Source: Spinacia oleracea (lineage: Eukaryota > Streptophyta > Magnoliopsida > Caryophyllales > Amaranthaceae). Taken from it: a DNA stretch of 64,000 nt. Within the stretch, counting starts at the first letter, position 1. Each line of letters starts with the position of its first letter. This document shows positions 33,253 through 36,200 of the stretch, in pieces. Both the position numbers and the translations under genes were made by a program. The notes beneath the pieces are model-generated. The model did no database searches. It saw only the letters and a list, made by a program, of their open reading frames with translations, and was not told the DNA's origin. The stretch covers positions 3,844,001 to 3,908,000 of the forward strand of contig NC_079490.1 of the NCBI RefSeq assembly GCF_020520425.1, given 5' to 3'.

Positions 33253-36200
33253 TTACTCTTCTTTACCATCTTCCCCCTTGTTGCCCTTCAAGAACCGCGT
33301 CCACCAATAAGCGGAGGATTTGGGATGCCGGGAAAGCCCGTTCTTATAGTCTACATAAACTAAACCGAAACGTTTGGTATAACCTTGTTGCCATTCAAAG
33401 TTGTCCAGCAAAGACCATGCGAAGTATCCTTTCACATTGCTGCCATCCCTGTTGATAAATTGGGATTAGATGCGCGATGAACATGTTTTACATGGAAATC
33501 AAAAGGAGTTCTCATAATACAACCAAGATATACACGGTTGTCAAGTTGAGCAACATTTTTCACTTCGTTGGAGAAGATGACAATAGTCTAATGCATCTTT
33601 TGTTCACGGAAATTTTGGCTCATCCACATACGTTTTATTTTTGTTTTTGTGGTGCGAATGAGCCACAAGGGCAATACAAATTACAGAGGGGGGGACGTAC
33701 ACAGTCCTTCACTCTTATTCACTGGGACAAAACCTCATTGGTAAGTCTCATCATCAAAAGTGATGGCTCAATTTCCTCATGTGAAATAAGAAAAGATAGT
33801 ATTGAACAAGTGCTTTTAATCCTTTAATACTTAAGTTTAGCAAAATCAGACCAATTCAATCAAAATCAAGGTGAACAGAACATATCCAGTGCAATCAACC
33901 AGTATGAGTGAGTTAGATAGTTATCATGCACACAAGAAGAATAACATGAATACATGATTGAGGAAAGAGTATAACCAATCAACCAATATCAGAGTGAGTT
34001 AGCAGATATCTTTCTCATGCTTAAGATTCTCAAATCACCACTACCCACAAGCCGAATAACATGATTGAGGAATGAGTATAAGCATTATAATGTGGCTATG
34101 AGTACATAATTCTCAAGGTTAACCAGCCCAGCTACCGCAGGTTTTCGCTTGAGTCAGTCCCAAGCATTACACAGTTGATGGGGCTCGACTCTGTGACCTC
34201 TAAGTCACAAGGTGAGTTCCCCACCAACTCCACCAACTTATGTTGGTTTTACGGAAAGATAATTAATCCCCGCTAAAAACAAACTAAAGACTAGAACGTA
34301 GACTACTGCTTACCTGATTGCCTCCGCAACAGAAGCAACATATCCCTTGAAGTAAGTTACTCTCAATTTGTCATCTAATACCTCATGGAGCTCAGCCAAG
34401 TCGTCGTTTTCATCATCCATACCTGCCAATATTGTAAATAGCTCGTCAATTTTGATTTCCTTCAGTATCCATGTTTTGTTCAATTCCTTGATTTCTTCCT
34501 TGTTTAGCCAAATTATTGAACTAAATAAAAAAAATTCAACCGAAAAACTATACCATTCTCAGTAACATAAATTGTAGGATTGTTGTACTTCTCTGTTACG
34601 TAATTAAGAAGTTTTCTAAACCCCCAAGGAACAACATAAAGCCACGGTGATGCTGCCTGCCATTCAAGTGGATATAGAATATCAATCATAATAAAAATTC
34701 ACACAGAAATCCCCTTTCCAAATCTCCTACATCTATATAGAAAATTTTCTCAAGAATATGCAAGAAAAGAGCTTTGAATTGTTGATTGATCGCCAAATAT
34801 GGCTTAGAACCAACAGTTCATTATCGAATGGATCTTTCCATTCTAATACTGTATCCGAGAGTTATCAGCATTTATCAAATATGTTCATATCCAACGGAAT
34901 ACTATTGGATAAAATGACAAAGACATTGTTAAGAAAAAGATTGCTTTTCCCGGATGAAATGAAAATTGGATTCATGCAAGAGGAAGGAGCTGATAAAGTA
35001 CCCTCTCGCCAATTGTTTCACCATTATCCCATTCAGCTGTAAATGGAATGAAACGAAAAAATAAGAACAGAAACAAAAACCAAAAAAACAAAGTTTTTTA
35101 GGGATTCAGGGCTTCAGCATTTACCAATTGTCTCCATCTCTTGTGCTGCATAATAATCACCCCCTTCAGCATCATTAGTCAAATGTGCTACGTACCTAGT
35201 AGTGTAGTGATTTATACCAAGGAAGTCTATGGAGTTTTGAAGAAGATCTCTGTCTTCTCGAGAGAATTTAGGAAGCCTTTCTCCAAGTTTTTCACGCATT
35301 ACTTGAGGATAGTCTCCAAAATATATCGGATCCAAATACCTACGCCACAGAGGAAATGAAATGATCAATTCCTCCAACTATCCATGATTACAAAGAAAAT
35401 GCATGTCCATCATTCAATTAAAGATCGACTTTAAACTGAATAACCAAAAATAGATACCATCCTAGCTGGAAAGCAAGATGTCGTGCAGCAGCATTTTTGT
35501 CTTCAACACTCTCTGATGCAGGCTCGGCCCATTCACAATCAACCACCAAGCCAATTTGCCCGCCTTGCTTTTCCTAGGCGGAGGAAAAGAAAATAAACAA
35601 AAGCAATAGCAATAAAAAGCCTTATTGAGATAATGTATTAACATTTGTTTAAAAAAAGTATACAAACTACAACTCAACATCAACAACAACAACAAAGCCT
35701 TAGTCTTAGTCCCAAAATGATTTGGGGTCGGCTAACATAATGTATTAACAAACTACAACTCAACAAGTTACTCCAAGACTCAATAATCAAGGCTTTCCAA
35801 CTTATCACAATGATTACAAACTCTAAGGCATTACTACAACCAGTTGATTACTACATAAAATCATTGAGATGGTTGGAAAGTAATCAATTTTGTTATGTTA
35901 TGGAATTTCACAGTAACTATAGCTTCAAGTGATAGTGATAAAAACATAGTGTAAATACCTGCATAAATATGTAGTTATTATATTACAATTTTTAAGTTCC
36001 ATAAACTATATGGATTATTAAATGAAGTAACTTTGTTACTTACCCGGTTACCCCATCAATCCACAGTCATATCCAATTTATCAAGCTTTTCATACTGTTA
36101 AAACAATCAAGGAAAATCGATACCTGGTACTTGTCTTTATAGATTGACGCGGCAGAAGCATGGGCCAGGATTTGGTGATGTGCTACCAAATATGAATCTT

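Follow-up and report, generated by a model that had tools for sequence, protein, structure and literature searches.

How did a piece of the plastid gene ycf2 come to lie in an intron of one of two neighbouring beta-glucosidase genes of spinach, and can the second gene, which lacks it, tell us when it arrived? The window analysed here (C4:3844001-3908000) is a stretch of 64,000 bp from an assembly of 894,210,420 bases in 242 contigs, and it holds two tandem GH1 genes, copies A and B. According to the original prediction, about 270 bp encoding the C-terminal end of Ycf2 lay antisense in intron 10 of copy A, copy B kept the site as it was before the insertion, and the insertion was young and later than the duplication.

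Hand-spliced models of both copies have 13 exons, 1470 nt including the stop codon and 489 aa, with no premature stop and GT-AG borders at 12 of 12 introns; both genes are intact. The copy A protein matched Pfam PF00232 (E=4.4e-172). The positions needed here are as follows.

33253..38650, minus strand: GH1 beta-glucosidase copy A, 13 exons, 489 aa, PF00232
39919..46091, minus strand: GH1 beta-glucosidase copy B, 13 exons, 489 aa, from the gene model
34657..35001, minus strand: intron 10 of copy A with the insert, 345 bp, GT-AG, from the gene model
42021..42101, minus strand: intron 10 of copy B, the empty site, 81 bp, from the gene model and the flank alignments
34714..34984, plus strand: NUPT, 3' part of ycf2, from the alignment to C242:139000-145000 and the match to 8xku_D (E=3.8e-33)

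Other introns of these genes also differ between the copies. Intron 3 carries tandem arrays in both, built from a 43-bp unit in copy A (10.1 repeats, 37599-38028) and from a 115-bp unit in copy B (4.9 repeats, 44928-45493). Copy B has a 289-bp tandem duplication with 91% matches in intron 4 (44230-44787) and, in intron 11 (41488-41822), a MITE-like element that is absent from copy A in the whole-gene MAFFT alignment and whose 40-nt terminal inverted repeats are imperfect (75%). In its intron 9, an insertion of 131 bp (42201-42331) resembles 54403-54534 at 84% and thus probably belongs to a repeat family. The whole-gene alignment of A and B misplaced the ycf2 insert, apparently due to this intron 9 insertion, and BLAST blocks were used.

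The insert comprises about 271 bp of plastid ycf2 inside the 13-exon copy A gene on contig C4 (189 Mb), with 17 bp between it and the 5' splice site of intron 10. On the plus strand, a single open frame at about 34706-34977 encodes a Ycf2-like peptide, which in a phmmer search of PDB chains gave one match, Ycf2 (8xku_D), covering residues 2213-2294, the last 82 of the 2294-residue chain. No Pfam match was found for the fragment or for the corresponding piece of a second plastid sequence (L001, described below), so the ycf2 identification is based on the PDB chain and on plastid DNA. Against the assembly's plastid contig, C242, the insert matched at E=4.2e-94 and 90%; 239 of 265 aligned positions were identical in a local alignment, the remainder being mismatches and a 4-bp gap. 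Since the GH1 genes lie on the minus strand and the ycf2 sense strand is the plus strand, the insert is antisense to its host gene. The predicted origin and orientation therefore stand, as does the size of about 270 bp, with the borders shifted from 34706-34977 to 34714-34984. The description as the C-terminal end needs adjusting: the fragment does come from the 3' end of the gene, but in the assembly's own plastid QEEKDFPFLSRKDMWP adds 16 further residues past the Met that closes the 8xku chain, so the fragment ends slightly before the true C-terminus. The comparison with L001 had suggested that a ycf2 stop codon was missing from the insert; CAA stands at that place in the own plastid, which rules out such a loss. 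The insert is an ordinary NUPT.

Contig C242 (145,000 bp) is the plastid genome of the window's assembly. Its ycf2 end is open and precedes a Ycf15-like frame; rbcL- and atpB-like frames (named by eye) are present too, and the Rps3 and AtpB that it encodes aligned over their full length, with zero differences, to the chloroplast chains 4v61_AC and 6fkf_B. Both structures are from spinach. A ycf2 search of a bacterial genome collection returned one relative among 410 candidate stretches, L001 (contig NZ_CADDZT010000058.1, from the assembly of Frankia meridionalis Cppng1), which holds the ycf2 end and ycf15; the Pfam Ycf15 match adjoining its ycf2 piece (E=1.5e-29) supports a plastid identity. 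No ycf2 relative was found in the viral contigs, plasmids, phages and E. coli genomes searched. Cppng1 derives from an inoculum taken from Coriaria papuana, with Coriaria arborea as the plant used to propagate it (PMC6735867). This plant plastid DNA in a published bacterial assembly is probably host-plant contamination, and we infer that it is Coriaria DNA. The insert matched L001 at 228 of 265 positions. C242 and L001 are distinguished by 11 sites; at 10 of these the insert agrees with C242, at none with L001, and at the remaining one it shows a third state.

Within its own assembly the ycf2 piece had 11 matches: the insert itself, one on C242 and nine other nuclear loci, the nuclear ones on the large contigs C1, C3, C4, C5 and C6. 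Inserts of this type are thus common in the assembly. Eight of the nine other nuclear loci cover sites at which the insert has a derived state (L018 covers none), and seven of these eight have no such state in common with it, which makes direct origin from the plastid the simplest reading. The exception is L013 (C5:19266500-19269000), diverged at 51 of 241 sites, which has 4 of 18 covered insert-derived states in common with the insert; this may be due to chance or to misalignment near the indels. The ycf2-like part of L013 (1118-1363, 71% to the plastid, many gaps) may be an ancient NUPT or some other fragment of organelle origin. Another locus, L011 (C5:113150000-113157000), has 866 bp (2787-3652) that are 99.2% identical to C242 and reach a masked stretch, which marks it, on present identity, as a recent NUPT. 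NUPTs are described as widespread in spinach genomes in the accessible part of PMC8902716, and that part does not name the copy A intron 10 locus. None of the papers listed by a literature search on NUPTs, beta-glucosidase and introns concerns this locus, to judge by the titles.

The empty site in copy B allows both junctions of the insert to be read. The flanks align on both sides (A 34462-34708 with B 41822-42070; A 34982-35097 with B 42082-42200), and three short features lie at the edges.

34982..34984, unstranded: GGA microhomology, common to plastid CAAGAGGA and the copy B flank GATGGA
34709..34713, unstranded: ATCCC, 5 bp of filler or diverged edge, with no clear plastid or copy B counterpart
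42071..42081, unstranded: 11 bp present only in copy B, through loss from A during integration or through a gain in B

At the junction on the exon 10 side, GGA occurs both in the plastid sequence CAAGAGGA and in the GATGGA of copy B that precedes the common flank. An end-joining signature (1-7 bp of microhomology or a blunt join), with copy B as the reference state, was found at one of the two junctions, the second edge being the 5 unmatched bp. The 11 extra bp in copy B resemble neither edge of the insert beyond chance, with 73% and 88% of 5000 random 11-mers scoring equally. Copy B does lack the insert, as predicted; because of these 11 bp it is not exactly copy A minus the insert. If copy B represents the original site, the junctions are consistent with end joining and a small loss of target DNA, a mode of NUPT integration described in PMC7037861 and PMC6215612.

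The empty site together with the plain 81-bp intron of copy B favours an insertion in the copy A lineage after the duplication, which we consider likely. A genome search with the exon 9-exon 10 region of copy A returned only A and B (2 candidates scored). Three other GH1 loci were hand-picked from at least 96 exon matches, obtained with 93 of 209 candidates scored; they are too distant for their introns to act as an outgroup to intron 10.

We then compared the substitutions in the insert with those between the gene copies. Among 236 ungapped positions, 16 distinguish the insert from its own plastid (6.8%, JC 0.071; for the raw divergence, the Poisson 95% range is 0.039-0.110). When polarised on L001 over 228 bp, 15 differences were found in the insert alone and none in the own plastid alone, one was three-way, and L001 alone differed at 10 sites. 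At the protein level, private residues numbered 9 in the insert, 3 in L001 and 2 in the 8xku chain; 3 residues were three-way, and a test of equal rates gave P=0.017. Between copies A and B, coding divergence was dS 0.146 (NG86) or 0.124 (YN00), with dN 0.034-0.036. Their introns, excluding intron 3 with its tandem arrays, showed 198 differences over 1930 aligned sites (JC 0.110), rather a lower bound because unalignable parts are uncounted. Half of the A-B divergence, the share of the A branch, is 0.055-0.073, so the insertion appears about as old as the duplication; by hand division the ratio of the two ages is near 1 and lies roughly between 0.5 and 2. The insert is therefore not the young arrival with few substitutions that had been proposed: as far as these divergences can be read, it is old, bearing in mind that the clocks may differ, that the count is small and that only alignable intron blocks entered. 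This clock cannot tell an insertion shortly after the duplication from one shortly before it followed by loss in copy B, so the predicted order is likely from the empty site and not proved.

The open frame across the fragment had been taken as a further sign of youth. Relative to the plastid, the insert has a 5-bp deletion and a 4-bp deletion (one gap, or two of 2 bp, depending on the alignment), which sum to 9 bp and restore the reading frame; a frame broken by the 4-bp deletion was considered and is ruled out, since the 5-bp deletion cancels it. In a simulation starting from L001 over 75 ungapped codons, the frame stayed free of stops in 45% of cases with 15 substitutions and in 35% with 20. 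As stop-free frames arise this often by chance and the indels happen to cancel, the frame is a sign of neither youth nor function. By codon position 1/2/3, the differences from the own plastid number 8/6/2, with no excess at third positions. Comparison with L001 (25 of 225 sites differing; NG86 dN 0.103, dS 0.195) puts dN/dS below 1, but has plastid evolution mixed in. A functional plastid-derived exon is not what we see: the fragment is wholly intronic, antisense and shows the 8/6/2 codon pattern. It is probably neutral.

Taken together, we hold with high confidence that the insert is a NUPT, a ycf2 fragment probably captured by end joining in intron 10 of copy A at about the time of the duplication, likely soon after it, and drifting since. 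Its plastid origin, its position, the anatomy of the junctions, the private substitutions and the absence from copy B are observed directly, whereas end joining, the order relative to the duplication, normal splicing and neutrality are deduced. End-joining repair of a double-strand break in GH1 intron 10 of the copy A lineage would have captured a plastid fragment of about 280 bp, taken from the 3' part of ycf2, with microhomology of 3 bp at one end and some 5 bp of filler at the other; the target probably lost as many as 11 bp in the process. This would have happened around the time of the tandem A/B duplication, most likely soon after, and the insert would since have drifted as intron sequence that is presumably spliced out normally and most likely has no function.

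The timing could be read differently. The insertion may have preceded the duplication, with copy B later losing the insert by a deletion that left 11 bp. The insert's divergence, which equals or exceeds that of the A branch, and the 11 unmatched bp at the insertion site in copy B would suit such a course. It requires, however, a deletion of the whole insert and almost nothing besides; those 11 bp are unlike the insert edges, and intron 10 of copy B is a plain 81 bp. We regard this course as unlikely. Insertion and tandem duplication might also have been one episode, in which repair of the same break made the gene copy and trapped the fragment. Were it true, this would explain the agreement between the two divergences, and we give it only a slim chance. 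A young insertion, polymorphic among accessions, could draw on the single open frame across the fragment; its substitution load is about that of the duplication, however, and at 15-20 substitutions such a frame survives by chance in 35-45% of cases, and we think recent arrival very unlikely.

As for the source, plastid sequence is known to reach the nucleus by way of the mitochondrion, and the fragment could have come within mitochondrial DNA that already carried it, a route compatible with the timing preferred above. The window itself gives no pointer to this relay: both sides of the insert are bounded by sequence homologous to copy B, except for the 5 bp, and the 11 genomic matches are confined to C1, C3, C4, C5, C6 and C242, although a mitochondrial contig may be missing from the assembly. 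We think this route very unlikely. Plastid DNA is plentiful in leaf libraries, so that plastid reads might have been assembled into a nuclear contig as a chimera. Such reads would equal the plastid sequence, whereas the insert carries its 16 differences and two deletions, and the probability of an artefact is close to negligible. Capture of plastid DNA in intron 10 of copy A near the time of the duplication thus remains the reading we prefer.

The insert has little significance beyond the locus and serves as a clean teaching case, with the filled site, the empty paralogous site and the donor plastid together in one assembly, so that the junctions can be read and the age bounded. Whether a short organelle fragment reads open carries little information on its age, and the useful correction concerns the age of this insert; the event itself is common, and the example is well preserved. 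Like other NUPTs, the insert is plastid DNA decaying in a nuclear intron, with short microhomology at a junction. It lacks the excess of C-to-T and G-to-A changes that has been described for NUPTs, these making up 4 of its 16 differences. Unlike the typical case, it has a tandem twin that provides the empty site within one genome, which is a handy arrangement and not a new kind of insertion.
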